A stretch of DNA of 20,985 nt from a virus. This document shows, piece by piece, positions 1 to 20,985 of the stretch (the first letter of the stretch is position 1; every line of letters starts with the position of its first letter). The notes beneath the pieces were generated by a model that did not search any database, had not been told where the DNA came from, and worked only from the letters and a program-made list of their open reading frames with translations. Position numbers and translations under genes: made by a program. The DNA lies in the IMG/VR virus record IMGVR_UViG_3300025128_000427, positions 1 to 20,985 of that record. One strand, 5' to 3'.

Positions 1-1576
1 CTTCTTCAAACCATTCCTCCAGTTCTTCTATTGTTTCAAATTCTAAAAATTCCGTAGGCGCTTCTTCAAAAACTTCAGTAAGTTGTTCATGTTCAAAATT
101 AAACATAAGGTCTTCTTCCGAAGCAATAAGCGTATACTCTTGTTCAGGCTCAAATAGATAAACTTCTTCATATGTTTCTTCATACACTTCTTCATATGTT
201 TCTTCTAAGTAAACCTCTTCATAGACTTCTTCATATGTTTCTAAGTAAACTTCTTCATAGACTTCTTCGTACACTTCTTCTAAGTAAGTCTCTTCGTATG
301 TTTCTTCGTATGTTTCTAAGTAAACTTCTTCCTCAAATATTCTCTGTTCTTCTTGCCAAGCTAATTCTTCAGCAGCCCAGATAGCTTCTTGCTCTATATC
401 ATATTCATCCATTAATACATCTACATCATCATAAGAGTCCATGGTCGTTGTTTCCCATTCAACCATACCTTCATCACTAAATTCTACATCTGTGCCAAAC
501 CACTCATCGACTTGTTCCTGACCAAACTGTTCTACATCTAACTCGTACCAATCCTCATCCGTGAAACCTTCACAGGCGTTTTCATAACAAGGATCATTTG
601 GGTCCAACCATTCATCGTATTCTTGGTCATACCACATATCATCTTCGGTATACCCATAGTCATAGTTCTCTTCATAAGAAGTGTCATAAACAAGAGTTTC
701 AACTACATAACCAGGACACGACACAGAAGACTGAGGGTTTTGAGTACATTCATAATCAAACAAATCATCCCAATAACTAGGGCACTGCGTTGAATACAAC
801 CCATCTAAACCACATTGTTGTGTTAAATAAGCGGCAGCATAGCCTGGACAAGCAGTATTATTTAAAGCACTGGTACAGTCTAAAGCATTCCCAGAACCTA
901 ACCCATATAAAGAACCACCATCCTCCAGTAAAGTATTGTAGGAATTACTGCTAGAGTTCCAATCATAACTTACACAAGTTCCTGAAATATTAGTAGTGCC
1001 TGTATTACACTTATCAAAAAATAAGTAAGTATAAATATCTGAAGTAGTTGGACCCTGCTCTCCAATAAGAACGTCATGTGTTTGAATATCCAATTCACCA
1101 TATCTATATTCAAATGTGTTATTGGGATATAACCAGACTTCTATACTGTTATCAGAATTGGCACGATTATATTCCCTCATGTTATACCAGCCAAAAATAG
1201 TATAATCATCAAAGGCTTTAGCCCTCATAGCTGAACCGCCATCTTTTATCAGGTCAGTCCAGAATGGAAATAAAGTATTGGTGTATTGAGGCAGTGGGTC
1301 GGGGGTGTAGTCCCCACAATAACTGCCCGTCAGGTTAAAATGCAGACAACCATTGGTAGCCATTCTTGCTTGGGTAAAATCATTACCATAAAAGGTAAAG
1401 GTAAAGCCTAAGTCAAAAGCTGCCGAAACTGCATCATCATTTGAACCTAATCCTGTAGAACCCGCTGAATTGGTTTGTAAATCGTATAGGGGTTGGTTTG
1501 ATTCGTAAATGTATGTTGCGTTAACTGTAGGGACAAACAAAAACGCAAATAAGCTAACTGCCCTTATTAAATTCAC
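1..1576 (-). CDS. Exported protein with nidogen-like domain, CPGY cysteine motifs and acidic Glu/Tyr/Val repeats (3' end cut by window edge)
   Basis: The frame is open for 525 codons from a GTG at 1576 to the left edge, with no stop. AGAGGA lies about 10 bases upstream of the GTG, and the gene overlaps the preceding one by 23 bases. Residues 1-20 form a signal peptide (hydrophobic AVSLFAFLFV, then VNA before TYIYES). Residues about 45-165 resemble a nidogen-like (NIDO) beta domain: FTFTFYGNDF, ATNGCLHF, LFPFWTDL, then IEVWLYPNN and FEYRYG. Residues about 230-295 hold cysteine motifs of CPGY or CPSY type. The rest is very acidic and ends in tandem EEVYEETY-like repeats. It is inferred to be exported to the periplasm or cell surface. 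No enzymatic motif is seen and the function is unknown. A tail or adhesin component is an alternative, although a signal peptide argues against a cytoplasmically assembled virion part. Confidence 0.85.
   Translation of the reverse strand, partial: MNLIRAVSLFAFLFVPTVNATYIYESNQPLYDLQTNSAGSTGLGSNDDAVSAAFDLGFTFTFYGNDFTQARMATNGCLHFNLTGSYCGDYTPDPLPQYTNTLFPFWTDLIKDGGSAMRAKAFDDYTIFGWYNMREYNRANSDNSIEVWLYPNNTFEYRYGELDIQTHDVLIGEQGPTTSDIYTYLFFDKCNTGTTNISGTCVSYDWNSSSNSYNTLLEDGGSLYGLGSGNALDCTSALNNTACPGYAAAYLTQQCGLDGLYSTQCPSYWDDLFDYECTQNPQSSVSCPGYVVETLVYDTSYEENYDYGYTEDDMWYDQEYDEWLDPNDPCYENACEGFTDEDWYELDVEQFGQEQVDEWFGTDVEFSDEGMVEWETTTMDSYDDVDVLMDEYDIEQEAIWAAEELAWQEEQRIFEEEVYLETYEETYEETYLEEVYEEVYEEVYLETYEEVYEEVYLEETYEEVYEETYEEVYLFEPEQEYTLIASEEDLMFNFEHEQLTEVFEEAPTEFLEFETIEELEEWFEE
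161..331 (-). repeat. Tandem acidic repeat (Glu-Glu-Val/Thr-Tyr) inside the exported protein
   Basis: On the minus strand GAAGAAGTATATGAAGAAAC-like units recur, encoding YEEVYEE and YEETYLEE patterns with an occasional Leu. The units are short and imperfect. The array would give a highly negatively charged, tyrosine-spaced segment. Boundaries are approximate because the repeats decay on both sides. Confidence 0.8.
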
Positions 1577-2969
1577 GTTTACACGTTCCTCTGGATTTCT
1601 TTATCCCAGAACTATTTAATGTGCCTACACACTGGTTAAGAAAATCGGCTTTAGCCTCTTTATAATCAGGTCGATCCTGTGGGTTTTGTTGCCATGCTAA
1701 ACTAGCTTCTGCCCCGATTTTTCCTTGATACGGACAAGGTGTACCTGCCATAGTCATAGCCTTATGGACTCTTACATCTTGGCAAAGGAGCGCCACACTT
1801 GCGACCTTCATACCCATATCGTACAAATACTTAGATAACTTTAAGCGCTCACAGTTCTCATCCCTTACAGTACGACCAGCCGATAAACCAAACACTTGTC
1901 CTTGAAATGCTCCAGAGCGACCCACAGTACATAGGTCTTGGCTATAACTCATAATACTAGGAGCAATCGCAGAAGCAGGCGGTGCTTTTTGCGTGATATT
2001 TTGATTAATAGTCTGTTCAGACTTTGACTCATTAATGTTTCTATTAGTGTTGTCAGAAGTTGATTCATTTACATTTTTATTATCGGTCTTAACATTTGAA
2101 TCAGAAGTCGACTGATTAACATTAGTGTTCTTATTATCACTAGAGCTAGTGCTGTTATTGGTGTTTGTATTATTACTGGTACTATTGTTTGTGTTGGTAT
2201 TATTACTGGTACTATTGTTTGTGTTTGTATTATTACTGGTACTATTGTTTGTGTTGGTATTATTACTGGTACTATTGTTTGTGTTGGTATTATTATTGGT
2301 GTTGGTACTGTTGCTGGTGCTATTGTTTGTGTTGGTATTATTATTGGTACTATTATTGGTATTTGTACTGTTATTAGTGTTGGTGTTGGCATTAGTGTTA
2401 GTCGAGGTTGACGTATTAGTGTTGGTGTTGGCGTTGGTGTTCGTAGCTGTTGACGTATTGTTATTAGTGTTGGCGTTGGTATTGGTATTAGTCGCAGTTG
2501 AAGTATTAGTGTTGGTGTTGGCGTTGGTGTTCGTATTAGTCGCTGTTGACGTATTGTTATTAGTGTTGGCGTTGGTGTTCGTATTAGTCGCTGTTGACGT
2601 ATTAGTGTTGGTGTTGGCGTTGGTGTTCGTATTAGTCGCTGTTGACGTATTGGTGTTGGTACTCGTATTATTATTGGTGTTAGCGTTGGTATTGGTATTC
2701 GTATTGGTGTTAGTTTGAGTGCCCGTTGTAGTTGTTGTATTAGTATTCGTATTTGTGTTGGCGTTAGTGTTGGTGTTTGTATTGGTGTTGGTATTGGTGT
2801 TGGTGTTTGTTCCAGTTGTAGTAGTAGTTGAAGTTGTAACTAAAGTATTTTGTTCACAATACTCCCCTGTAGTACAATCACCAGTTTGGTCTGCCTTTAC
2901 CGCAGTCGCACTAAATAAAATGCCCCCTATAATCAAATAAAAATATAACCATGTTTTATGTAACTTCAT
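1554..2969 (-). CDS. Exported Thr/Asn-repeat protein with six-cysteine C-terminal domain
   Basis: This encodes 471 residues. Residues 1-26 are a signal peptide (basic start, hydrophobic core YFYLIIGGILF, and AVKA before DQTGD). Residues about 44-325 are almost only Thr, Asn and Ser, with Ala at intervals, and are built from 10- and 16-residue units. Residues 328-471 form a compact domain with six cysteines (for example SQDLCTVG, DENCERLKLSK, GMKVASVALLCQD, AGTPCP), an even number that would suit disulfides outside the cytoplasm. From memory, the KLSK...GMKVAS...LCQD...AGTPCP pattern recurs in marine phage proteins of unknown function. The start overlaps the nuclease gene by 14 bases without a clear ribosome site, so translation is probably coupled. 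The role is unknown; a flexible stalk presenting the C-terminal domain is an inference. Confidence 0.9.
   Translation of the reverse strand: MKLHKTWLYFYLIIGGILFSATAVKADQTGDCTTGEYCEQNTLVTTSTTTTTGTNTNTNTNTNTNTNTNANTNTNTNTTTTTGTQTNTNTNTNTNANTNNNTSTNTNTSTATNTNTNANTNTNTSTATNTNTNANTNNNTSTATNTNTNANTNTNTSTATNTNTNANTNNNTSTATNTNANTNTNTSTSTNTNANTNTNNSTNTNNSTNNNTNTNNSTSNSTNTNNNTNTNNSTSNNTNTNNSTSNNTNTNNSTSNNTNTNNSTSNNTNTNNSTSSSDNKNTNVNQSTSDSNVKTDNKNVNESTSDNTNRNINESKSEQTINQNITQKAPPASAIAPSIMSYSQDLCTVGRSGAFQGQVFGLSAGRTVRDENCERLKLSKYLYDMGMKVASVALLCQDVRVHKAMTMAGTPCPYQGKIGAEASLAWQQNPQDRPDYKEAKADFLNQCVGTLNSSGIKKSRGTCKREFNKGS
2161..2290 (-). repeat. 30-bp tandem repeat (10-residue Asn/Thr/Ser unit)
   Basis: Four near-identical 30-bp units start at 2161, 2191, 2221 and 2251, differing mainly at one base (GTGTTT against GTGTTG on the plus strand). 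They encode repeats of the type NNSTSNNTNT in the exported protein. Degenerate copies continue on both sides. The near identity at DNA level indicates recent expansion or ongoing slippage or recombination. Confidence 0.9.
2401..2690 (-). repeat. 48-bp tandem repeat (16-residue Thr/Ser/Ala/Asn unit)
   Basis: The landmark tgacgtatt (once tgaagtatt) recurs at 2409, 2451, 2499, 2547, 2595 and 2643. Spacing is 48 bases except for one 42-base step. The unit encodes TSTATNTNTNANTNTN, and the last residues alternate between TNTN and TNNN in successive copies, which suggests a 96-bp higher-order duplication. Confidence 0.9.
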
Positions 2970-3378
2970 CTGGATTAAACAGCCTTTTTTCTATTAAAGT
3001 CTGACGATTAACTAAATGCTCATCTTCGATGTCTTTTTTGCTTTGTCCTTCGTATTTAACGGCAAGAGACTCGTCAACCATTGTTAGGTTTATATTAGTG
3101 CCTTCAACATACATTTCACCCAGGACACGACCAAACTTACCTTTTTTGTCCCGATGAGTTTTAATAACAACCGGGCCTTTTGATAAAGCATCTATGAGAT
3201 ATTTTTTACTCATTAATCCCCTAACCTTTTCGTCTTTGTTTCGGGTTCTGCTTTCTGGGGTGTCAATACCATATAGGCGAACACGACTGGCATAATGAAT
3301 AGAAAAACCAAGATCAATAACAACATCAACAGTGTCGCCATCCACCACCCTTTTAACTTCACAGCTATATTCGTACAT
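2956..3378 (-). CDS. Thermonuclease (staphylococcal nuclease-like, SNase fold)
   Basis: This is a 140-residue calcium-dependent phosphodiesterase-type nuclease. All key residues of the staphylococcal nuclease family are present: VVDGDT with Asp15, RLYGIDTPE with Arg34, Asp39, Thr40 and Glu42, and KFGR with Arg84. These match Asp21, Arg35, Asp40, Thr41, Glu43 and Arg87 of the S. aureus enzyme. The ATG at 3378 is chosen because it shares its A with the TAA of the preceding small gene (TAATG). A longer version from a TTG at 3435 would add 19 residues that overlap that gene. No signal peptide is seen with this start. In phages such nucleases may degrade host DNA or act in packaging or lysis; the position after small membrane proteins does not settle this. 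Confidence 0.9.
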   Translation of the reverse strand: MYEYSCEVKRVVDGDTVDVVIDLGFSIHYASRVRLYGIDTPESRTRNKDEKVRGLMSKKYLIDALSKGPVVIKTHRDKKGKFGRVLGEMYVEGTNINLTMVDESLAVKYEGQSKKDIEDEHLVNRQTLIEKRLFNPDEVT

Positions 3379-3509
3379 TACAACCAACCAAAAGCATGGA
3401 ACAAGTCCCAAAGGACATAGATAAAACAAATCCAAAATGCCTTACGATAGAAAACATATTTATTGTAAATAGCGTCAGGTATTTTGCCAAGTTTATATAA
3501 TTCTTCCAC
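3378..3509 (-). CDS. Small membrane protein, 43 residues, possibly the second half of a TAG-interrupted gene
   Basis: GTG at 3509 follows AGGA by 7 bases and opens 43 codons ending in TAA, which overlaps the nuclease ATG as TAATG. The product has an amphipathic N-terminal part (VEELYKLGKIPDAIYNKY) and one aromatic membrane segment (FWICFIYVLWDLFHAFGWL) at its end. The frame is the same as that of the upstream 55-residue gene and only a TAG and three codons separate them, so it may be the C-terminal half of one 102-codon product. Its place among small membrane proteins suggests a lysis role, but this is an inference. Confidence 0.6.
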   Translation of the reverse strand: MEELYKLGKIPDAIYNKYVFYRKAFWICFIYVLWDLFHAFGWL

Positions 3510-3710: not shown

Positions 3711-3881
3711 TTATGTTCCAAATATTATTCCTGCCATTCCAACCACTAAGGTAATCAGTGTGGCAACAATAAAGTGTTCAAGTCTTTTGACTCTGTTGAT
3801 GACTTCCAGCCAACGCTCTGCACAGACAGCTTCGTGGCTCTCTATTTTGGTATTAAGTGTGGCCACAGTCATCTTGCTCAT
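3711..3881 (-). CDS. Small coiled-coil plus C-terminal membrane helix protein (XhlA-like arrangement)
   Basis: This encodes 56 residues. The start overlaps the oxygenase stop as ATGA, and GGAGG lies just upstream inside that gene. Residues about 10-36 are a charged helix (TKIESHEAVCAERWLEVINR) and residues about 38-55 a membrane helix (HFIVATLITLVVGMAGIIF). This layout resembles XhlA-type proteins of phage lysis cassettes, a known small family with an amphipathic N-terminus and a C-terminal anchor. Assignment rests on architecture, not on conserved residues. Confidence 0.7.
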   Translation of the reverse strand: MSKMTVATLNTKIESHEAVCAERWLEVINRVKRLEHFIVATLITLVVGMAGIIFGT

Positions 3882-4654
3882 GCAGCCTCCTCAACCTCCC
3901 AACAGTTCATATTGGAAGCCACTGTTCGTCTTTCGCCTTCGCCCCTAAATGGATAAACCATGTGCGATAGCCAAGCAGGAAAAATATATAACTTGCCGAC
4001 TTCGGGCTTTACTTCAAAACTTTGTGGTGGTCTAAGTCGTTCCACATTCATTATCTCGTTACGCCCATAGTTAAAGCATAAGTAACCATCACAAACCCCT
4101 GAAGAATTATATTTACTATATAACGAATCCCCAGCAGTCGGTTGATCGAGTATTTGTTGTGGCACTTTAGTCCAAGAAGTTGTCGATAGTCCCATAATGG
4201 TTTTCGTTCCATGATCGTGTATCGGGTTGTAATCGCCCGCATAACTATGCACTGACCAAGTTTCATCAACCGCCACTTGTCTGTTCTTAGATAACATAGA
4301 CCCTGTGTTTTGCATAAAATGATTGATGTATTGTGCACCCAAACTGGTTATAAACTTAGAATAAGACCTAACCTTTTCATGCTCTGGGTCCATGTTTAAT
4401 TGCTCACCATGAGCAATCTGCCCTACTAGAGTACCTGCTAATGATTCTTTGTCCTCGGATTCTCGTAATTCATCCAAGTATTCGTTTAAATCATTAACCA
4501 TTGCCTCTGGCATCTGGGTTTCCAATACGAAAACCGCAGGCATATTCCAGATATTGACATTAATATCTGTCTCTTCAACAGGCTTCGCTTCCTTCTTATC
4601 AGAATTATCATCCCAATAAACGAAATCTGTATCAGGCTCCTTCTTCTTAGCCAT
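3878..4654 (-). CDS. 2OG-Fe(II) oxygenase-like protein
   Basis: This encodes 258 residues. The double-stranded beta-helix metal site is visible as YNPIHDHG (His146-Asp147-His148) and a distal WLSHMVYPF (His231), followed by ERRTVASN with Arg242 and Arg243, one of which would bind the 2-oxoglutarate carboxylate. The common proximal motif is HxD. Here it reads His-Asp-His, which resembles the HxH form I associate with one phage and bacterial subfamily. The N-terminal 30 residues are charged and probably flexible. In this family the reaction is hydroxylation of a protein or small molecule with 2-oxoglutarate and oxygen; the substrate is unknown. The gene lies between tail and lysis genes. No clear ribosome site is seen before the ATG. 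Confidence 0.8.
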   Translation of the reverse strand: MAKKKEPDTDFVYWDDNSDKKEAKPVEETDINVNIWNMPAVFVLETQMPEAMVNDLNEYLDELRESEDKESLAGTLVGQIAHGEQLNMDPEHEKVRSYSKFITSLGAQYINHFMQNTGSMLSKNRQVAVDETWSVHSYAGDYNPIHDHGTKTIMGLSTTSWTKVPQQILDQPTAGDSLYSKYNSSGVCDGYLCFNYGRNEIMNVERLRPPQSFEVKPEVGKLYIFPAWLSHMVYPFRGEGERRTVASNMNCWEVEEAA

Positions 4655-5008: not shown

Positions 5009-8000
5009 TTATTTATCACACTTTTCATGTGCTTTAGATTTTAATTCCTCGACTTCTGACGAGAGTTCTTTCACTGCGTTTATAAGTGGATATACAAAAT
5101 CTGCTGGTGAAATTCTTTGTACATCATCAACACTAGTATCGTTCCAACCACCAAAAGTATCTACACCAACTTCATCAAGAGCAGCTTTTACTTCTTGAGC
5201 AATAAGTCCGTGTTTTAGTTTACCACTGTCTGCTTTATTTTCTTCTGCGTTATAGTGTTCTGTAAGGCTTGGGTCAACTTCTTGTGATGGTTTTAGTTCG
5301 TATGTCGCAGGTCTTAGTTTGTTGATAAACTCTAGTCCTAACGTATCTGTGTTTATATTCTTTTTAAGCCTTTCATCTGAAGTCCAAGACCAAGAACTAC
5401 CGCCTGCAAAACCTGTACTGACATTATTACCACCAACACCAATATATGCCGTATTATTTGCAGTTAATGTTAGGTCGTTTCCAAGACCAATTCTGCTTCC
5501 AGAATCAGTTGCTTGTACATCACAATTGTGACCAACACATACATTATCACTACCTGTCGTACAAGTATCGCCTGCAGTTGCACCAATAAATGTATTGTCT
5601 CCGCCTGTAGTTACTGCTGAACCTGAATTAGAACCCACGGCTGTGTTATTTGCGCCAGTTGTATCAGCACTTAAAGTTGATCTACCGATTCCGACATTAT
5701 GATTGGCTGTATTAACATCCAAAGAATAAGTACCGATTGCAACACAATCTGTACCCGTTGTGATTGCATCTAAAGCTAAATACCCCATAGCAATATTACC
5801 AGTTCCTGTGGTGCAAGCACGCAAAGCACTGTTACCAACAGCTACATTTTCTGAGCCTGTGGTGTTTGAATACAATGCGTTCCAACCAACTGCTGTATTA
5901 TTTGTCGAAGTGGTGTTTGATGTTAAAGCACCATAACCTACTGCTGTGTTGTTAGATGCGGTTGTATTAGCGTCTAAAGCATTTGTTCCCACAGCAGTGT
6001 TTCCAGCGCCTGTGGTGTTTGCCGTCATCGCAGAGTGTCCAATTGCGGTGTTGTTATCTGCTGTGGTGTTGGCATCAAGGCAATAAGCACCCACTGCAAC
6101 TAAACCAGCACCTGTGGTGTTAACTTGTAATGCTCCTTTACCCACTGCTGTATTAGCGCTTGCTGTCGTGTTAGCAGTCAACGCTTCAAAACCAATCGCA
6201 GTATTAGAATTTGCTGTTGTGGTTGCTGCTAATGTTTTATATCCCATTGCAACATTGTCCTCACCAGTTGTTTGTAACAACATGGAGTTCCAACCCACTG
6301 CTGTATTATTTGTCGCAGTGGTGTTTGCTCCAAGTGCGTTGTGTCCAATAGCTGTTAAGTAATTACCTGTGGTTGCTGCATCTAGTGCTGCGTAACCCAC
6401 TGCGGTGTTTTGTCCACCTGTGGTGTTTGCTCCTAAAGAACTTATACCAACAGCAACATTAGCTGTTCCTGTGGTATTAGCTGTCATAGAGGAATGACCT
6501 ATTGCTGTGTTATTAGATGCTGTTGTTTGAGCATCTAAAGCGAGTCCGCCTATTGCAACATTAGCTGTGCCAGTTGTTAAAGAAGCGGCTGCACCTTTAC
6601 CAATCGCTACATTATGTGTATCTGCATCCGATGTATAGTTAAATGCTGTTAATGCGTTATAACCAACCGCTACATTAGAAGCGCCTTGTGTATTTGCGTC
6701 TAGTGCTGCTGCACCAACTGCTACATTCGAGCCACCTGTGGTGTTTGCTCCTAAAGCCTGATCGCCTACTGCTGTGTTACTCGCTCCTGTGGTATTGGCT
6801 CCAAGAACATCATTACCAACTCCTGTGTTATAACTAGCCGTTGTTATTGTTTTTAACGCACTAGCACCTACGCCAACATTTCTTGTTCCTGTGGTGTTTG
6901 CTAACAAAGCATCTTTACCGATTGCTGTGTTACTATTCGCTGTCGTGTTTGCTGCTAAAGCAGATGTACCAAGTGCAACATTCGCTGTACCTGTAGTGTT
7001 TGCTCCTAAAGAACCATAACCAACCGCTACGTTATTTGATGCTGTAGTGTTTGCATCTAAAGCTGCATTACCAACTGCTACATTTGATGCGCCTGTGGTG
7101 TTTGCTACCATTGCGTTCAAACCAATAGCCACATTGTTAGATGCTGTCGTGTTCGCTCCTAAAGCTGCATAACCAATACCTGTGTTGTTAGAGCCTGTGG
7201 TGTTCGCATCCATTGCTAAAGAACCCATAACAACATTATTATCACCTGTGGTGTTTGCTGCTAGAGATGACCTTCCAATAGCTGTGTTGTTTGAAGCAGT
7301 TGTATTTGCTGCTAAGGCTTCTCTTCCTACGGCTACATTATCCGCTCCTGAAGTATTAACATATAAAGCACCTCTACCTATTCCAATATTTGAATCGGCT
7401 GTGGTGTTTGCTCCTAGAGCATCTAAACCAACTGCAACATTTGAGCCACCAGTTGTATTCGCATCAAGAGCGTTAGTACCTATAGCAACATTGTTTGATC
7501 CCGTTGTAAGAACGCCAGCAGCAGCATCGCCCACTGCCACATTGTCCGAGCCAGTTGTAAACGCATCAAGAGCGTTCTCCCCTACGGCAACATTGTTTGT
7601 TCCTGTGGTCATGGCTGTACCGAGTGCGCCAGAACCCAGTCCGATATTACCTGTACCGCCTGTCATATCGAGTACGTCAGTTACGGCAGCACCTGCTCCC
7701 GCGCCATCAGCGACCACCATCTTGATTCCGCCATTCGGAATAACGACATTAGCGCCTGTGCCTTGAGATATTGTTACTTGATAACCCGCACTATTTTGAA
7801 TAATCCAAGTTTTATTAACGGTATTCGGTGCGAGAGTTACGGTGTTGGTTGCGGTGATTGAGCCTGCAAGAGTAAGAGAATAGGCCCTGGCGGCATCTGA
7901 GGTGCCGTCTTGCATGGTAATGGTATGGGAAGTTCCAGTAATTGTTTCGGAACCACTGCCCCAGGCCTCTGCGATGAGCTCTAAATTTGTGTTGGTTGAT

Positions 8001-8071
8001 GTGCCCCAGGTTCCCGATTCGTCACCTGTAGCAATTTCTTTTAATCTTAGATCGTTTACATAGGTTGCCAT
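5009..8071 (-). CDS. Tail fibre with long beta repeat shaft and C-terminal peptidase S74 chaperone domain
   Basis: This encodes 1020 residues. Residues 1-135 form the N-terminal attachment region (ATYVNDLRLKEIATGDESG, then ITATNTVTLAPNTV), a type I recall from many marine phage fibres. Residues about 142-872 are about 42 copies of a 17-residue repeat, typically NNTAVG..AL.ANTTGA, resembling the trimeric left-handed beta-roll repeats of YadA-type adhesins. Residues 898-1020 are a peptidase S74 intramolecular chaperone: SDERLKKNI at the expected self-cleavage site, LRPATYELK, KHGLIAQEV and a final coiled coil. In this family the domain drives trimer folding and is then released by autocleavage, here predicted just before Ser898. 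AGAGG precedes the ATG by 7 bases. It probably binds the host receptor. Confidence 0.92.
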   Translation of the reverse strand: MATYVNDLRLKEIATGDESGTWGTSTNTNLELIAEAWGSGSETITGTSHTITMQDGTSDAARAYSLTLAGSITATNTVTLAPNTVNKTWIIQNSAGYQVTISQGTGANVVIPNGGIKMVVADGAGAGAAVTDVLDMTGGTGNIGLGSGALGTAMTTGTNNVAVGENALDAFTTGSDNVAVGDAAAGVLTTGSNNVAIGTNALDANTTGGSNVAVGLDALGANTTADSNIGIGRGALYVNTSGADNVAVGREALAANTTASNNTAIGRSSLAANTTGDNNVVMGSLAMDANTTGSNNTGIGYAALGANTTASNNVAIGLNAMVANTTGASNVAVGNAALDANTTASNNVAVGYGSLGANTTGTANVALGTSALAANTTANSNTAIGKDALLANTTGTRNVGVGASALKTITTASYNTGVGNDVLGANTTGASNTAVGDQALGANTTGGSNVAVGAAALDANTQGASNVAVGYNALTAFNYTSDADTHNVAIGKGAAASLTTGTANVAIGGLALDAQTTASNNTAIGHSSMTANTTGTANVAVGISSLGANTTGGQNTAVGYAALDAATTGNYLTAIGHNALGANTTATNNTAVGWNSMLLQTTGEDNVAMGYKTLAATTTANSNTAIGFEALTANTTASANTAVGKGALQVNTTGAGLVAVGAYCLDANTTADNNTAIGHSAMTANTTGAGNTAVGTNALDANTTASNNTAVGYGALTSNTTSTNNTAVGWNALYSNTTGSENVAVGNSALRACTTGTGNIAMGYLALDAITTGTDCVAIGTYSLDVNTANHNVGIGRSTLSADTTGANNTAVGSNSGSAVTTGGDNTFIGATAGDTCTTGSDNVCVGHNCDVQATDSGSRIGLGNDLTLTANNTAYIGVGGNNVSTGFAGGSSWSWTSDERLKKNINTDTLGLEFINKLRPATYELKPSQEVDPSLTEHYNAEENKADSGKLKHGLIAQEVKAALDEVGVDTFGGWNDTSVDDVQRISPADFVYPLINAVKELSSEVEELKSKAHEKCDK
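5456..7648 (-). repeat. About 42 tandem 51-bp (17-residue) fibre shaft repeats
   Basis: The unit alternates a beta strand ([NS]N[VT]AVG or AIG) with a turn (ALDANTTG, SLAANTTA). Nearly all copies keep exactly 17 residues. Exceptions include one 22-residue copy (about residue 465, with FNYTSDADTH) and a few 16-residue copies. DNA identity between copies is only moderate, so the array is old and selected at protein level. Confidence 0.9.
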
Positions 8072-13613: not shown

Positions 13614-14522
13614 TTATGCTCCGGGGCTGCCAAAGACTGCTCGGGGGTCAGACCACCCAAACGAATATCTTTCGCGAGCCTTGTATCGTACATTACCAGT
13701 ATCAAAATCCGCTTCCATTGAAGTCTTGATTGGTGAACGGTTAAACATTTTGAACCCGTTCGGACAATCAGTCTTAATGAACCACGCATCTGTATCAGTA
13801 AGATAATGATTTACGGTATAGCCTTCTGGGACCATGCCCATGTTGCGTATAGCGTTAATATCATTATCAGAAGTACCCACACGTCCTTGTGATTCCATCA
13901 AACGATCAGCGGTGAATTGAAGCTCTTTAGGAAGAATTAGTCTCATTCCTTGGAGAGCAACTTTTAGTCCCCGCTCATCAGTAAAGGCCGCAATGTCGAT
14001 TAGTGCTTGTTCTAATGAAGTCTCATTAAGGTCAGCAGACGTTGAAAGCTCATTACGCAAATTAGCGCCACCCACAGTTGGATGGTCTGTTGCGCAAAGT
14101 TCTTTCGTGTCGCCGCCTGGATAACTTGAATTGAACGCTCTATTCAGGACAGAGGCTGCTTTTACTTGCTTGGTGTTACTCATACTTCTAGCAAGCGCAC
14201 GAGTGTATCTTGCTGACAATTTGTCATAAAGATTATCCTCGATAGCTTCTTCAGTAATTGAAAACGCCAATGCAATCGTTTCATGGGTGTACCTAGACGT
14301 AAAGGCTTCTTGTGCTTGATCAAATGCAACTCCGGCTCCTTCTGATTTAACAGGTGCTGTATCGAAACCAGTGAGCATAACCTCTTCTTCAAAAGCTCGG
14401 TCACTAGACTCAGTATCATAAATTGCTTCATGTTCTTGGTCATAGCGACTGTACTCTAGTCCAAAGAGAGCATTCAAGCCAGGTAGCAATTCTTTTACGA
14501 GTTGCGCTCTACTTATAGCCAT
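13614..14522 (-). CDS. Major capsid protein (HK97-like fold, by type)
   Basis: This encodes 302 residues. It begins MAISRAQLVKELLPGLNALF and has an acidic helical N-terminal arm, FTSRYTHETIALAFSITEEA, AARKYTRALA-type helices (read here as SARYTRALARSMSNTKQVKA), LCATDHPTVGG, LKVALQGMRLILPKE, and a C-terminal strand block KARERYSFGWSDPRAVFGS. This matches major capsid proteins I recall from marine phages. Gene order (portal, scaffold, two small proteins, capsid, terminator) supports it. AAGGAG precedes the ATG by 6 bases. Confidence 0.88.
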   Translation of the reverse strand: MAISRAQLVKELLPGLNALFGLEYSRYDQEHEAIYDTESSDRAFEEEVMLTGFDTAPVKSEGAGVAFDQAQEAFTSRYTHETIALAFSITEEAIEDNLYDKLSARYTRALARSMSNTKQVKAASVLNRAFNSSYPGGDTKELCATDHPTVGGANLRNELSTSADLNETSLEQALIDIAAFTDERGLKVALQGMRLILPKELQFTADRLMESQGRVGTSDNDINAIRNMGMVPEGYTVNHYLTDTDAWFIKTDCPNGFKMFNRSPIKTSMEADFDTGNVRYKARERYSFGWSDPRAVFGSPGA

Positions 14523-15662: not shown

Positions 15663-16619
15663 TTACTCCTTCACGTATTTTGCGTACTCTTCTAGTGGCA
15701 CACCTAATTTTTTGGCGATTGCAACCTGTGATGGTGTGAGTCTCACAGTGTTCTTACCGCGCCCTTTTTTCGCGCTGCGCGTTGCAGATGCGACCGTTTG
15801 GGCGGGACGGTTGTCTTGTAAAGTAGCGTCTCCATTAAACTTATGTGGAAACTCCTCCCTTATTCGTTTGTCTATCTCATCATAATACGCGTCTTCCGAT
15901 CCGTCAAACCCTTCTTCTTCGGTTAATGTTCGATGCAATACAAAACTGGTCATGGTCATAGCGGCATCTTTTCCGAACCAATCATTTTTTACTGCCCAGG
16001 CTTCTGCCTTTGGATCAGGCGGCGCGGGAGCCGCTTCCGGAGGAGCTGTTTTTGTTGCTGCGGTTCTTGCAGCCTGTTCTGCTACATTAACCTGTAGTTT
16101 CCTTCTATCGTTCAAGGACTTAAGGTTTTGGGCCTCCACTGCTAATCGAGCCAGTTTTTGTTGAGCGTCTACCTGCTTATCCACTTCATCGTTTTCGGTA
16201 GCCTGTCTTAATTGTTGTTTAGCGGCTTCTGTTTCTGTGGTGATCCTGTTGGCAAACTCCACAATATAATTTCCGTCAAGTGTGGAATTTCTTGTTTTTA
16301 GTTTTGTGTTCTCTGTTTTTACGTTTTGTGCATATTCTGTAGCGGCTTTCTCTCTTCGTTCAGCCTCTCTTAGTTTCCCGGTTAATTTGTTAATCCGGGT
16401 TTTAACGCTTTTACTGTAGCTTTCAAGCTCATCGGGTTTTTCTTGCTCTGCCTCTATGACCTTTACTTGGGGTGTTTGTTCTTCTTCCTTAACCGTTTCT
16501 TGTTCGACTTCGGTTATTATGGCTCCTTCTTGGGGCAGTTCGACGTCGACGGCAGGGCCGGAAACATCCAGGTCCACCATTTTTTCTTCGTCTGTTTTAG
16601 TTAGTTCTTGTGCTGGCAT
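15663..16619 (-). CDS. Capsid scaffolding-like protein
   Basis: This encodes 318 residues. The N-terminus is acidic (VEQETVKEEEQTPQ). Residues about 65-190 form a long charged coiled coil (KTRINKLTGKLREAERREKA, TETEAAKQQLRQATENDEVD). A Pro/Ala linker (APPEAAPAPPDPKA) follows, then a helical domain with WFGKDAAMTMTSFVLHRTLT, and a basic C-terminal helix (KKLGVPLEEYAKYVKE) that could bind capsid protein. Architecture and position between portal and capsid genes fit an internal scaffold. There is no protease domain. GAGGA precedes the ATG. Confidence 0.85.
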   Translation of the reverse strand: MPAQELTKTDEEKMVDLDVSGPAVDVELPQEGAIITEVEQETVKEEEQTPQVKVIEAEQEKPDELESYSKSVKTRINKLTGKLREAERREKAATEYAQNVKTENTKLKTRNSTLDGNYIVEFANRITTETEAAKQQLRQATENDEVDKQVDAQQKLARLAVEAQNLKSLNDRRKLQVNVAEQAARTAATKTAPPEAAPAPPDPKAEAWAVKNDWFGKDAAMTMTSFVLHRTLTEEEGFDGSEDAYYDEIDKRIREEFPHKFNGDATLQDNRPAQTVASATRSAKKGRGKNTVRLTPSQVAIAKKLGVPLEEYAKYVKE

Positions 16620-16634
16620 GATTTAATCCTCATG

Positions 16635-17114
16635 TTAATAATTATGCAGAATTGCTTCTGGGTCGGTTACTTTCGCAATGATTTCGTCATCGTTCAATAT
16701 TTTGACTTCTCCGCCTTCTATTTCAAAGCGAGAGCCGGCATATCGTCCGAACAAAACCCAATCCCCGGCTTCACACCAAGGACCTGTTGGAAATTTGTTT
16801 TCGTCTTGATAAGCGAGTTCACCTGTTTTTAACACATAACCGAGGACCGTGGCTATTTGTTGCCGTTCCACGGTTTTCTCTGTTAAGTATATGCCTCCCT
16901 CTGTGCGGGCTTGGCCGCGGTAGGGAAGAATAAGGATACGCCAACCGGTGGGTTCAGGAAGCTGGCTTAATAGATCAGAAGACAGCTTTTCCGGATTAAG
17001 TTTTTCCTCATCCGTCTTCTTGTTGCCAACTTTTTCATAGGCTTTTTGTAAAGGGGCCTTATTGGCCTCTTCCTGCGCCCACTTTTGTTCAAGGGCGGAA
17101 TTTGCGTCACTCAC
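16635..17114 (-). CDS. GroES-like co-chaperonin (Cpn10 fold)
   Basis: This encodes 159 residues from a GTG start with AGGAG about 9 bases upstream. Residues about 50-150 follow the Cpn10 layout: GWRILILPYRGQARTEGGIY, with GGIYL at 73-77 as the mobile-loop tripeptide region that contacts GroEL; then QIATVLGYVLKTGE, EAGDWVLFGRYAGSRFEIEG, and LNDDEIIAKV. The first 50 residues are an extra charged helical extension absent from bacterial GroES (about 97 residues). By analogy with T4 gp31 it probably works with host GroEL to fold the capsid or another virion protein, which its place beside the scaffold supports. The host-partner role is inferred. Confidence 0.85.
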   Translation of the reverse strand: MSDANSALEQKWAQEEANKAPLQKAYEKVGNKKTDEEKLNPEKLSSDLLSQLPEPTGWRILILPYRGQARTEGGIYLTEKTVERQQIATVLGYVLKTGELAYQDENKFPTGPWCEAGDWVLFGRYAGSRFEIEGGEVKILNDDEIIAKVTDPEAILHNY

Positions 17115-17118
17115 AGGT

Positions 17119-17307
17119 TTAGTCTCCTTGTTTATCTAGTAACGTGTTTATCTCGGTCTTCACATAAGCCAAGGCTTCTGTTTGTCCGGTCAAGTGTCGA
17201 TAATGCTCCCAGTTCTTAACTTCACCGTTAAGCATCATCATTTTTACTCGTTCTTGTTTCTCTTCAACTATTTTTAATAGTTTATAAGCAAAATCTACCG
17301 TGTCAAT
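17119..17307 (-). CDS. Small helical protein, 62 residues, with apparent ATT start
   Basis: The frame IDTVDFAYKLLKIVEEKQER...EINTLLDKQGD is open between an upstream TAA and the stop at 17119. AAGGAGAGAAACT places a good ribosome site about 8 bases before ATT at 17307, and no ATG, GTG or TTG is available in frame until the ATG triplet at 17241. The N-terminal residues fit the helical pattern of the rest, so an ATT start is the simplest reading. The stop is 4 bases before the co-chaperonin GTG. The function is unknown; it is predicted to be a short helical hairpin. Confidence 0.6.
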   Translation of the reverse strand: MDTVDFAYKLLKIVEEKQERVKMMMLNGEVKNWEHYRHLTGQTEALAYVKTEINTLLDKQGD

Positions 17308-17319
17308 AGTTTCTCTCCT

Positions 17320-19530
17320 TTATCCACTATATGTGTTGAAAAAATCGGGATATATTGGGCCCTTTTCTTCTTTTCTTAGTGGGTCCTTGTGCGGGGGCAA
17401 AGGAAAGGGTTCTGGAACAGGATCAAAGTATCTTGGGTCTATTCCGGAAGGGTATAGACCGGATTGAGCTGTTATTGGAATATCGTAGTTATAAGCTGAA
17501 GCGTCCCCTAAATCTAGTCCGCTTATTCCAGATTGAGCTGCTCCCGTTGACACGCCTCCGCTAAAAGGGGTTGTCCCTCCAAACTGTTCAGGGCCCATCA
17601 TATCGTAAGGGCTCACCGATCCGTATGGGCTTGTATAATCCGTATAGGGCGTATAACTGGTTGGAATCGTGTAATTAGGTGCTGGCACTGGTTCAGTAGG
17701 TGTTGTCTCGCCACCGCCTGTTTCGCCACCGCCACCGGTCGCTTGCAGAGCTGCGGCTATTGCAGAGCTAATTGCTCCGCCTTCACCTAAAGCAGCGTCC
17801 AATGCCGCTTGTACTGAAGAATCCACGCCTTCTTGTCCTAAGTATCCTGACTCTGCCATCAAAGCATTGATCTGATCTGCTGTCATATAACCTGAATCCA
17901 ATAGTGCTTGAATATCTTCCATAGACAAACCTTCTCCGGTTTGTCCTGTTTGAGAGGCTGCGATTGCATCCGTGATCATTTGTTGAATAGTGGCTGGGTC
18001 TACGGCCCCCTCTGTAGCCGCCACTATCATGTCTTGTATTTGTTCTGGTGTTAAGCCGTCAGCGATGCCTTGGGCAATCATTTCTTGTATTTCGGCTTCG
18101 GTCAATCCGCCCAGGGACGCAAGAGTGGCTTGTGCATCAGCGATCATTTGTTGAATAGTAGCTGAGTCTACGACTCCGCCTGTAGCGTCAGCAACCATCT
18201 GTTGTATTTGTTCTGGAGTTAAGCCGTCTTTGAGGGCTTGAGTAATCATGTCTCTTATTTCGGTTTCGGTCAATCCGCCTAGCTCTCCAAGACTGGCTTG
18301 AGAATCAGCGATCATTTGTGCAATAACGGCTGGGTCCATACCACCGGCATATTGTTCGATCATAGTCTGTATTTCTGCTGGAGTTAAGCCGTTAGCAAGC
18401 CCGGCATCAATCATGTCTTGTATTTGCTCTGTGGTGAGTATGCTTTTTTGTGTTTCCTCTTGAGCGGCAGCGACCGCTTGCTCAATTGCAGAATTTATAT
18501 CGGCATCGCTCATACTGTCGCCCATGACAGTTTTAATCATGTCTCTAATCTGATCCTCGGTCATGCCTTGAAGCTGCGCGTTAGCAATCATTTGTTGGAG
18601 CACGTCTTCAGTAACATATTGAGATATGTCATAATCCTTTGTGAAGCTTGTCTTGAAGTCGTCGCCCCATAGTTTCATGGCGTCGCCTATTTGATCATCT
18701 ATGTTAAAATCTTGCAAAGCCGCTAGAATAGATGCGTCTACATCCCCTAGTTGAGCATAATCACCTAAACCAAGGTTCCCCAAAGCTGTTTCAATAGCTG
18801 TATCTACATCCTCTTTTTGAGTATAGCCGCCCATAAGTGATTGAAGATAAGGAGATTCTCCCATTTGTTGAAGAATAGGGTCTAAGTATTCTTGTTTTAA
18901 CGTGCCATCTGGGTTGAACCATTCTGTTTCCGTTGGAGTAGTTGCAGGTAAGTTTGGGTCTGTCTGCGGGTTATCCGGTCTGTCTGGTTCCGCAGGTGTT
19001 TTATTATGCGACAGTACAGGTACAGGGTTTTCTTCGGTGCCGCCTCGTAGCATATAGGTTTCCGCTTTATCAACTGAGAGACTGATAACAGGACCGTCGG
19101 GAAAAGACTTTTTGCTATCAACAACTAGCTCACCAATTACATCCCCTTTTTCTAAATCTATTACTTTTACAAAACCTTTGTCTTTTACAAAATAAGGGTG
19201 GCTATAGGAGGAAACAATACTGTCGCCCTCTTCAAAAAAGACCTCACATCTTGGAGAACCTTCAACTCTCTCTACTCGCGTTACTTTTTGGGTGTCTTCT
19301 GAAGTTGCTACTTCGTCACCTACTTTAAGGTCTCCGGCTAGTATCCAATCATTATTTGCCAACTGTATGTGTTCTTCGGGTCGAGCACATTGTTCCCACT
19401 CTTGTAGGAACTTCCACATAGAATAGTCCTCAAAACCAGGGTCCCCTAGCTGTGGTGGGTTTGCCAACCACGCATTTATTTGTTCAGTTGTAAACTGTTC
19501 TGTTCCGGCGTATGGAGGTTTCTCTGGCAT
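17320..19530 (-). CDS. Large virion-associated protein with N-terminal Hint (intein-like) domain and helical repeats
   Basis: This encodes 736 residues. Residues 1-47 are a short leader. Residues 48-176 are a Hint autoprocessing domain. Residues about 180-360 are polar and helical. Residues about 362-529 hold three 56-residue repeats. The end is Gly-rich, then Pro/Tyr-rich (YTIPTSYTPYTDYTSPYGSV) and closes with PIYPDFFNTYSG. There is no signal peptide or membrane segment. The ATG is fused to the portal stop as TAATG with AAAGGA upstream, so it is co-translated with the portal. Position suggests a head or internal virion protein that may be matured by self-cleavage. No protease, lysozyme or tape-measure motif is recognised. 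Confidence 0.85.
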   Translation of the reverse strand: MPEKPPYAGTEQFTTEQINAWLANPPQLGDPGFEDYSMWKFLQEWEQCARPEEHIQLANNDWILAGDLKVGDEVATSEDTQKVTRVERVEGSPRCEVFFEEGDSIVSSYSHPYFVKDKGFVKVIDLEKGDVIGELVVDSKKSFPDGPVISLSVDKAETYMLRGGTEENPVPVLSHNKTPAEPDRPDNPQTDPNLPATTPTETEWFNPDGTLKQEYLDPILQQMGESPYLQSLMGGYTQKEDVDTAIETALGNLGLGDYAQLGDVDASILAALQDFNIDDQIGDAMKLWGDDFKTSFTKDYDISQYVTEDVLQQMIANAQLQGMTEDQIRDMIKTVMGDSMSDADINSAIEQAVAAAQEETQKSILTTEQIQDMIDAGLANGLTPAEIQTMIEQYAGGMDPAVIAQMIADSQASLGELGGLTETEIRDMITQALKDGLTPEQIQQMVADATGGVVDSATIQQMIADAQATLASLGGLTEAEIQEMIAQGIADGLTPEQIQDMIVAATEGAVDPATIQQMITDAIAASQTGQTGEGLSMEDIQALLDSGYMTADQINALMAESGYLGQEGVDSSVQAALDAALGEGGAISSAIAAALQATGGGGETGGGETTPTEPVPAPNYTIPTSYTPYTDYTSPYGSVSPYDMMGPEQFGGTTPFSGGVSTGAAQSGISGLDLGDASAYNYDIPITAQSGLYPSGIDPRYFDPVPEPFPLPPHKDPLRKEEKGPIYPDFFNTYSG
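17944..18447 (-). repeat. Three 168-bp (56-residue) helical repeats
   Basis: Each unit contains GLTE.EI..MI, a helix, DGLTPEQIQ.M, an Ala/Gly linker, VD.ATIQQMIADAQATL and a short loop. Copies cover residues about 362-417, 418-473 and 474-529; the first is the most diverged. The LTPEQIQ.M helix pairs recall EF-hand or UBA-like helix hairpins, but no calcium loop is present. Confidence 0.85.
19003..19389 (-). other. Hint (hedgehog/intein-type) autoprocessing domain, residues 48-176
   Basis: It opens with Cys48 and LANNDWILAGDLKVGDEV, the usual first block. SSYSHPYFV gives the Ser-x-x-His form of the TxxH motif (Ser108, His111). VISLSVDKAETYML and VLSHN supply the last strands and the terminal His175-Asn176. 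The next residue is Lys177, not Cys, Ser or Thr. At about 129 residues it has no room for a homing endonuclease. Known Hint domains ending in HNK tend to cleave rather than splice; cleavage here is an inference. Confidence 0.85.
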
Positions 19531-20985
19531 TATTTTCCTTTAGGTTGGTTCATTTTTTCACGGGAGATAGAGGCTCTGAGCGCTGCGATGTCTTCTTGGC
19601 TTCTCATCTTCTCTTCGTCGGTTTCTTCCCGTACTTCCATTTTTTCTCGCTCAAGGGCTAATTTGTCTTCAGCAATACGTTTATCGTCTTCGTTCTCTTG
19701 TGATCTTATCATAAGTTCCTGTTGTTTCAATTCCAAAACACCTTCGTTATCTTGAGGAAGGTTCATTACTTCATTGATCCTTGGCATAAGTTCTTCCAAT
19801 AGATCCGCTTCCACCTGGGACTTCAATTGTTCCCTAAGAGGGTTAGGCGGCATAGGTTGTGGTGGCATGCCGCCTTGTTGAGCCATCATTTGCTGTTGCT
19901 GCATCATTTGCTGTTCTTGCATTAGCTGTTGTTGTAATTGCGGGTCCTGCTCTGCTAACTGTTGTACTTGTTGTTCCGCTATCTCCTCTGCTTTAAAAGC
20001 AACGTGTTGAAAAATGTCGGTTAGTAAAGAGGTGGCTACAGGAGGGTTCATAGACGCCATTGGATTTTCTAAAAACGTAATGTGCGATTCAATGTGCGCA
20101 TCGTGATCCTGTTCCGGAAACGCCTGCAAAGGAGAGCCCATCAAAGCCGCCGCATTCTCCAACGCCGGACTTGTCGGTTGTGGGGGCGGTGGATCCGGTA
20201 AGAGTAGCGTTTCAATGTTCTGTGAACCAAGGGCCGTGTACATTCGACGATAGGCTTCTTTAATATTGTGTATGTCTGGATTGCTTTGCACCAGTTGCAG
20301 TTCTTGTTGCGCGAGCGAAATTCGTTGGGCAAAAGAGAAAAAGTTTGGATCAGAGACCGGAATAACATCAACGCGACCATCAAAGTCTTGTTGCTTGATC
20401 ATTTGGTCTCCACCAACTACTTGATAAGGATACTCTGGTGGAAGGAACTCTGAGAACACTCTGGCTAATATTCTAAATTCTGTTTTTTGCGCATAGTGCA
20501 GTCGTTTGTGGACCGCGGACATGACCTTGGTCCCCTGTTCCATAAGCGCTAAGGTGGTACCGACTGCCGCTTGATCGTTGCCCTCACCCACTTGCATGTC
20601 GGTAATGGCGGCGAAGCGTTGTCCGGCTTCAACACAAAAACCCATTAATTGAAATAATGTGCCGCTTGGTTCTTTATAAGGTAGGGGCATCAAGGAATCT
20701 TTTAAGGCGCCTCCTGGTGCGTCTACGTCTCTAAATTCTCCGGGTTCTAAAGGCGTTTCGTCGTCTCTTATTCTTATGCCCCGAGCTTTAAAACCGGCGG
20801 GGAGATTGGACAAGGTTCCTGCGTCTATGAGTTGTCTGAGGGCCGCTGTTGCGGTTCTAGAGAGTCCCCCGATCATGTGAATTAAACCAAAGCCGTAGAA
20901 ACCCAGTCCTGGGAGAAATTTGTAGTGTACAAAATAGGTTATTTTGTGTCTAAGTGGATCGTCTTCATAATAGTTACGTCGAATG
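19530..20985 (-). CDS. Portal protein, N-terminus cut by the window edge
   Basis: 484 residues are visible and the frame runs open past the right edge; the ATG at 20876 is internal. Landmarks are ITYFVHYKFLPGLGFYGFGL, LSRTATAALRQLIDAGTLSN, IRIRDDETPLEPGEFRDVDA, SGTLFQLMGFCVEAGQRFAA, a MQVGEGNDQAAVGTTLALME helix and YPYQVVGGDQMIKQQDFDGR. I recall this series from marine phage portal proteins. The C-terminal third has a Gln/Met tract around residues 340-365 of the visible part, a Pro-rich linker and a long charged coiled coil, as expected for a portal barrel or crown extension. It is co-translated with the next gene through TAATG. Confidence 0.9.
   Translation of the reverse strand, partial: IRRNYYEDDPLRHKITYFVHYKFLPGLGFYGFGLIHMIGGLSRTATAALRQLIDAGTLSNLPAGFKARGIRIRDDETPLEPGEFRDVDAPGGALKDSLMPLPYKEPSGTLFQLMGFCVEAGQRFAAITDMQVGEGNDQAAVGTTLALMEQGTKVMSAVHKRLHYAQKTEFRILARVFSEFLPPEYPYQVVGGDQMIKQQDFDGRVDVIPVSDPNFFSFAQRISLAQQELQLVQSNPDIHNIKEAYRRMYTALGSQNIETLLLPDPPPPQPTSPALENAAALMGSPLQAFPEQDHDAHIESHITFLENPMASMNPPVATSLLTDIFQHVAFKAEEIAEQQVQQLAEQDPQLQQQLMQEQQMMQQQQMMAQQGGMPPQPMPPNPLREQLKSQVEADLLEELMPRINEVMNLPQDNEGVLELKQQELMIRSQENEDDKRIAEDKLALEREKMEVREETDEEKMRSQEDIAALRASISREKMNQPKGK

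Follow-up and report, generated by a model that had tools for sequence, protein, structure and literature searches.

Why some phages carry a GroES gene and no GroEL gene is usually explained by the example of T4, whose gp31 serves an oversized capsid protein; a survey of 2017 reportedly dealt with the chaperonins of the virioplankton. Two papers describe gp31 as having longer loops and no roof, which provides a larger cage for the ~56-kDa gp23 (PMC6318259, PMC3012670). According to the second paper, the gp31 homologues of T-even phages prefer their own gp23 (PMC3012670), so that even there cage size may be only part of the explanation. For the HTVC023P-type pelagiphages, GroES is counted among 13 core genes (82 genomes; PMC9599517), and a genome-comparison figure names GroES in the Roseobacter phages CRP-901 and CRP-902 (PMC10149686). 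In the mostly open-access literature that we searched, we found no discussion of an N-terminal extension or of a link to a capsid-protein lineage.

The DNA analyzed here (the window) is a fragment of 20,985 bases from a marine phage. Judged by its sequence, its groES-like gene appears to be another GroES of the type already known in pelagiphages; the linkage count and the comparison of roof, loop and extension are new detail within the literature searched. The gene and the parts of its product discussed below are as follows.

16635-17114, minus strand: cpn10 (groES-like) gene, 159 aa, GTG start, assigned from sequence, profile and predicted fold.
16959-17114, minus strand: N-terminal extension, residues 1-52, with an AlphaFold2 helix at residues 4-17, the motifs ALExKW, LxKxY and LNPxK, and constraint measured by dN/dS.
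16884-16898, minus strand: mobile-loop GGIYL, residues 73-77, from the branch alignment (n = 69).
16845-16856, minus strand: four residues (about 87-90) that follow the mobile loop and have no counterpart in bacterial GroES, from PDB and multiple alignments.
16767-16820, minus strand: roof-hairpin segment, residues 99-116, 18 residues (17 in E. coli), with F108, W113 and C114 invariant (69/69).
16638-16667, minus strand: C-terminal tail, residues 150-159, motif DPExILH, beyond the Cpn10 domain, with P152 in 69/69 and H157 in 65/69 proteins.

HTVC023P (gp36), HTVC027P (gp55) and DSL-LC04 share with the window the succession of cpn10, an ORF of ~310-350 aa, two ORFs and the capsid gene. Their capsid proteins are 68-77% identical to that of the window, and their Cpn10 proteins 48-55%. 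They differ in the length of the extension (39-49 residues versus 52 here) and in the start codon of a small gene upstream of cpn10 (ATG in all three versus ATT here); between the portal region and cpn10, HTVC027P has extra ORFs, whereas the window has a 736-aa ORF.

The GTG start of cpn10 at 17114 is preceded by GGAG 9 nt upstream. The PF00166 (Cpn10) profile matched residues 55-149 over profile positions 4-93 of 93 (42 bits, cut-off 21.1), PHROG 3188 ("co-chaperonin GroES") matched the 159-aa protein with 64.2 bits, and a sequence search of the PDB returned Cpn10/Cpn20 chains (best E 1.3e-11). The alignment of relatives comprised the window protein and 86 of 115 listed proteins, proteins shorter than 95 aa being excluded. 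AlphaFold2, with an input alignment of 87 proteins, predicted a Cpn10 barrel (mean pLDDT 81.9). In a Foldseek search with this model, human Hsp10 (E 7.4e-7) and bacterial GroES (E 1.2e-6) ranked at the top and T4 gp31 scored E 0.013, so that the predicted fold scores nearer to cellular Cpn10 than to gp31. VIA-align superimposed model residues ~48-151 on 8wuc (Z 9.8), 1aon (Z 8.1) and two gp31 chains (Z 7.0 and 7.5). By sequence and predicted fold, then, the product is a phage co-chaperonin of the GroES/Cpn10 family, with homology far above chance. The Cpn10 core that a first-pass annotation had recognized is confirmed by Pfam, PHROG, the PDB sequence search, and the combination of AlphaFold2, Foldseek and VIA-align; the beta barrel, whose absence from a prediction that annotation had named as counter-evidence, is present in the AlphaFold2 model. 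The 155-aa "Co-chaperonin GroES" A0A221S4I5 of an uncultured virus in BFVD matched over its whole length, including the extension (TM 0.79, 158 columns, 48% identity), and extended viral Cpn10s are therefore already in the databases.

Purifying selection was estimated from 38 unique close relatives, with means taken over pairs with dS below 1.5 only (354-460 of 703 pairs). The dN/dS ratio was 0.071 for the core (residues 53-149) and 0.089 for the extension, indicating that the extension is translated and constrained. These values contradict the idea that the gene is a captured host gene that is carried along without function. Cpn10 is a cellular family, as this idea would have it, but identity to the matched bacterial GroES chains is only ~18-32% in the structure searches, which speaks against recent capture from those, and the gene is kept across phages of wide recorded host range. 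We give functionless carriage almost no credence.

In GroES proteins, the hydrophobic GGI motif of the mobile loop docks on GroEL. The motif is nearly invariant among 69 members of the window branch (G73 in 65, G74 in 69, I75 in 67 and L77 in 57 of the 69), Y76 being variable. From G74 to G98 the spacing is 23 residues in 69/69 window-branch proteins and 24 in 18/18 proteins of a sister branch, whose reference is the ct2os315 phage capsid protein, versus 19 in E. coli GroES; the extra four residues after the loop are also seen in the PDB alignment. The roof segment from G98 to G117 has 18 residues here, 17-20 across the window branch (69/69) and 17 in E. coli GroES; in the sister branch it is shortened to 9-14 residues (18/18), the presence of a roof being judged from alignment length alone.

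The first-pass annotation had taken the stretch KTGELAYQDENKFPTGPW before the GDWV strand for an insertion longer than usual. This reading does not hold: in the PDB and multiple alignments, and by a net core length of 95 residues on 90 profile positions, these 18 residues are the ordinary roof hairpin, with a single residue more than E. coli GroES. Aligned pairwise with E. coli GroES under plain BLOSUM62 scoring, the protein shows gaps at other places (4 and 9 residues), which would imply a long insertion; we disfavor this alignment because the PDB alignment, the multiple alignments and the net core length disagree with it.

The phage protein thus shares with bacterial GroES and mitochondrial Hsp10 the barrel, the GGI mobile loop and a roof hairpin of nearly equal length, and differs from them in the 52-residue extension, the four additional residues after the mobile loop and the conserved tail. 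With T4 gp31 and RB49 CocO it has in common that it is a phage-encoded co-chaperonin with a lengthened mobile-loop region (here four more residues between G74 and G98). In T4 gp31, however, the roof loops are absent and the capsid protein has ~56 kDa, whereas the window phage keeps the roof and has a capsid protein of 33.5 kDa. The parallel to gp31 drawn at first therefore applies to the loop region and fails for the roof and the size of the capsid protein. A capsid protein of 33.5 kDa offers no size reason for an enlarged cage, and with the roof kept, the bigger-cage rationale of gp31 is not applicable here.

In the head region of the window, the following genes are relevant to the argument.

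19530-20985, minus strand: portal protein, cut at the contig end (phrog_1216).
17119-17307, minus strand: 62-codon gene with ATT start, AGGAG 7 nt upstream; phrog_32603, function unknown; predicted helical hairpin.
15663-16619, minus strand: scaffold-like ORF, 318 aa (phrog_28737, function unknown).
13614-14522, minus strand: major capsid protein, 302 aa, 33.5 kDa (Phage_capsid_4, PF25209; phrog_371).

The order is portal, 736-aa ORF, 62-codon gene, cpn10 and scaffold-like ORF. Placement of cpn10 between portal and scaffold, as originally described, is thus correct as an order, but the portal gene is not a neighbor, since the 736-aa ORF and the 62-codon gene intervene. The scaffold-like ORF has a weak match to the head scaffolding family phrog_8865 (E 0.0017). 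Downstream, cpn10 is followed in the window by the ORF in scaffold position, two ORFs and the capsid gene. This order is common to DSL-LC04, HTVC027P, HTVC023P, 023Pt_psg01, Pag-Yong1, CRP-901, QDWS535, ct2G2228, ct2os315, ctpbd312 and the Caulobacter phage RW, and is found with extra small ORFs in ct7L0027; sequence homology of the ORF in scaffold position was detected in 7 records only.

Several other features of the window were recorded. The 736-aa ORF (17320-19530, minus strand) contains a Hint/intein-like stretch with a weak PT-HINT match (22.7 bits, below cut-off). It has a C at its start and HN followed by K at its end, after which come repeats of the EIQxMI type; the stretch is 68-100% identical in 11 related loci and present in two copies in loci L055 and L077. 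At the other end of the window lie a protein with a long acidic EETYEEVYLE-like repeat (2-1576, minus strand), cut by the contig end, and an ORF consisting mostly of asparagine/threonine repeat (TNTN...; 1554-2969, minus strand), for which the opposite strand is also open. In a fiber-like protein of 1020 aa (5009-8071, minus strand), GxNNTAVG-like repeats are numerous, and a Peptidase_S74 chaperone domain (45 bits) lies at the C terminus. Downstream of the fiber gene are a 2OG-Fe(II) oxygenase-like gene (3878-4654, minus strand) and a staphylococcal-nuclease-like gene (2956-3435, minus strand).

A tblastn search with the 302-aa capsid protein of the window found relatives in 21 of 50,697 phage records. 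All 21, several of which are near-duplicates, contain a Cpn10 above the Pfam cut-off (14 + 7), and their recorded hosts include Pelagibacter, Roseobacter, Caulobacter, Alcaligenes, cyanobacteria and Methanomicrobiales. For comparison, E. coli GroES as a query had matches in 90 of the 50,697 records, a rough count, as divergent proteins escape it and some of the contigs counted are bacterial. Cpn10 matches also occurred in two short Listeria "phage" records that lack annotation; these are probably bacterial, have no capsid relative and lie outside the 21. Cpn60 (GroEL) was found in none of the 21 capsid-relative records (control genomes 14/14 positive) and in none of six IMG/VR contigs of relatives, which are possibly fragments. 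With relatives lacking a detectable GroEL, the phage Cpn10 would have to use the GroEL of the host.

The linkage was followed into the metagenomic contigs of IMG/VR, with every locus whose capsid gene is preceded by more than 4 kb of sequence (29 of the 80 fetched with the window capsid protein, 38 of the 80 fetched with that of ct2os315 and 16 of the 20 fetched with that of vir526). Cpn10 was present in 29/29 and 38/38 loci of the first two sets, and all 67 copies share the strand of the capsid gene and lie 1.95-2.35 kb upstream of it. Five of the 29 are on contigs that were also found by the Cpn10 search (L017, L026, L051, L067 and L228, the last being the contig of L015). Farther away, the vir526 capsid protein is ~26% identical to that of the window, and in this vir526-like branch Cpn10 was within reach in 3/16 loci, 6-8 kb upstream. 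In whole records of that branch, many of which are fragments, Cpn10 was found in 4/20; from the ct2os315 query, 22 of the 80 loci, picked by size or upstream flank, entered the whole-record check. The MT836833 fragment, found only via the vir526 capsid protein, contained no Cpn10. In vir526 itself, cpn10 lies upstream of terminase. In MW202601 and MW202604 it is located elsewhere in the genome but retained, in MW202601 one gene from the single-stranded DNA-binding protein gene and away from the head genes. That cpn10 is retained although displaced in vir526 and MW202601 lends slight weight to a functional connection, as opposed to the two genes simply being neighbors. Cpn10 accompanies the capsid protein without exception in the nearer lineage, and the link loosens among more distant relatives. 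For the linkage alone, shared ancestry of the whole head module is a sufficient explanation.

A genome scan for the host returned two loci, namely one relative in an uncultured Pelagibacteraceae assembly and one Trichococcus stretch of 46 aa with no Pfam match. In the former (L306, CACOCL010000012.1, 7905-8339), a phage-type Cpn10 accompanies a capsid protein 69% identical to that of the window, and a cellular GroES is encoded on another contig of the assembly, which may represent an infected cell or a binned phage. The mobile loop reads KTKGGIIL in the phage relative and KTAGGIII in the cellular protein, with the same four-residue gap between them.

The dedicated use in capsid folding that the first-pass annotation proposed receives indirect support from the linkage (21/21 records and 67/67 loci, but only 3/16 distant loci) and from the lack of a phage GroEL (0/21). 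We consider it probable that the protein is a lid for host GroEL and that head proteins, above all the major capsid protein, are its main clients. Alternatively, it could be a general GroES substitute or booster, which would supply more lid and raise the throughput of host GroEL for a broad range of phage proteins during the stress of infection; the capsid protein would then have no privileged place. The close resemblance of core, roof and loop to bacterial GroES is what such a protein would be expected to show, the position of cpn10 next but one to the gene for a single-stranded DNA-binding protein in MW202601 would fit as well, and T4 gp31 can replace GroES for E. coli proteins (PMC6318259, PMC3012670). 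A general booster would, however, hardly require a fixed site ~2 kb ahead of the capsid gene at all 67 loci from two branches, nor co-inheritance with one capsid lineage in 21/21 phage records, and we regard this alternative as distinctly less probable.

The extension of about 50 residues described at first was confirmed, with 52 residues preceding the domain. It is about twice as variable as the remainder of the protein (mean entropy 1.81 versus 0.95 bits in 69 branch members). Its length has a median of 51 residues in the window branch and 7 in the sister branch, and ranges from 3 to 49 in 13 named phages; some script-picked starts are wrong (e.g., in L055 and L077), and the lower end of these lengths includes artefacts. 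As far as the alignments tell, extension length is a lineage trait that is specific to the branch. In the sister branch, the extension has at most 8 residues and the capsid linkage is the same. It is therefore dispensable for whatever links Cpn10 to the capsid genes, which rules it out as the cause of that link and removes the basis for regarding it as a reason for dedicated capsid use. The DPExILH tail, which was absent from the first account, is likewise conserved outside the Cpn10 domain.

Extension and tail could also be seen as parts of a head-assembly factor, in which the Cpn10 ring serves as a platform, for example by holding scaffold or portal, and the partnership with GroEL has been lost. 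The scaffold-like gene adjoins cpn10, and both additions are constrained, as such a role would suggest. The near-invariant GGI motif (G74 and I75 above all) is at odds with a lost partnership, and so is the short extension of the equally linked sister branch with a platform built on it; we hold this to be very unlikely.

Returning to the lid for host GroEL, we infer a heptamer, GroEL binding, the capsid protein as the main client and a role for the extension. The most likely assembly would be a ring of seven Cpn10 copies that would dock on host GroEL through its GGI-x-L mobile loops. The roofed ring would then close the cage over phage proteins, chiefly the capsid protein from the same gene cluster. 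With the GGI loop kept and the roof closing the dome, it should act as a near-normal lid. The likelier benefit would be kinetic or specific, that is, more lid, or a lid tuned via its inner surface, loop affinity or extension, and the beneficiaries would be the head proteins made in bulk. Extension and DPExILH tail would be branch-specific additions that probably contact the client, a head protein or the neighboring subunit.

The 62-codon gene directly upstream of cpn10 was missing from the ORF list because it has no ATG, GTG or TTG start; none of these codons occurs in its frame from the stop codon that closes it upstream to the point where the conserved protein begins. Homologues at 105 loci could be aligned as far as the model start, and 15 further ones were partial matches. 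The first codon is ATT in 45, ATA in 37 and ATC in 5 of these loci (87/105), followed by GAC or GAT. In 86 of the 87, the frame is closed by an upstream stop with no canonical start nearby, and the remaining one runs off the contig. Once duplicates are collapsed, these 87 loci amount to 60 sequences and 48 different proteins. A Shine-Dalgarno-like motif precedes the start by 5-8 nt in every one of the 87; it is of the GGAG/AGGA type in 76 and GGGG, which the count accepts, in 11. ATG stands at the model start in 10/105 loci, for example in L051, the only clade member with an AUG start, and in the more distant L276 and L290; among the other 8, an ATG follows a few codons later in seven and the contig end cuts one. 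Ten named phages have a small gene annotated at this place; it starts with ATG in 8, GTG in 1 and TTG in 1.

The preceding gene occurs in all three frames relative to the small gene (49/28/7 of 84), which disfavors stop-codon readthrough or a fixed frameshift as its origin. In 21 loci the TAG stop of the preceding gene overlaps the start as ATAG. Codons 2-22 are constrained (dN/dS 0.17, versus 0.10 in codons 23-58), and a later in-frame start, from which they would not be translated, is therefore unlikely. The small gene therefore seems, from these comparisons, to start with AUU. Its product was modeled as a helical hairpin (pLDDT 93.6). A fold search of the PDB with this model returned nothing at E 0.001 or better; the best matches (E 0.6, not significant) were varied helical hairpins, including type III secretion chaperones.

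In 81/86 loci, the stop codon of the small gene falls no more than 11 nt from the cpn10 start, on one side or the other, making translational coupling plausible. In infC, an AUU start serves the autoregulation of IF3. The near-cognate start (AUU/AUA/AUC) might be deliberate in the same sense, with cpn10 translation perhaps tied to an inefficient or IF3-sensitive start and GroES metered as infC does for IF3; we consider this unlikely on the present analysis. When the window was scanned for other genes starting with ATT, ATA or ATC, nothing beyond the small gene itself came up; in two longer contigs the same scan yielded none and overlooked even the known one, indicating poor sensitivity. A narrow literature search on AUU/AUA/ATT starts found no such phage case in titles or abstracts. 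If real, the start would exemplify natural, conserved non-AUG initiation in phages, which escapes gene callers that accept only ATG, GTG and TTG.

For the GroES gene itself, the comparison identifies a lineage with a small capsid protein in which all of the nearer relatives examined have retained a lid of their own, across very different recorded hosts, and full and shortened roofs occur within one gene family. Together, the small-capsid lineage and the variation of the roof would make the question of why a phage needs its own GroES testable by comparison, beyond T4.
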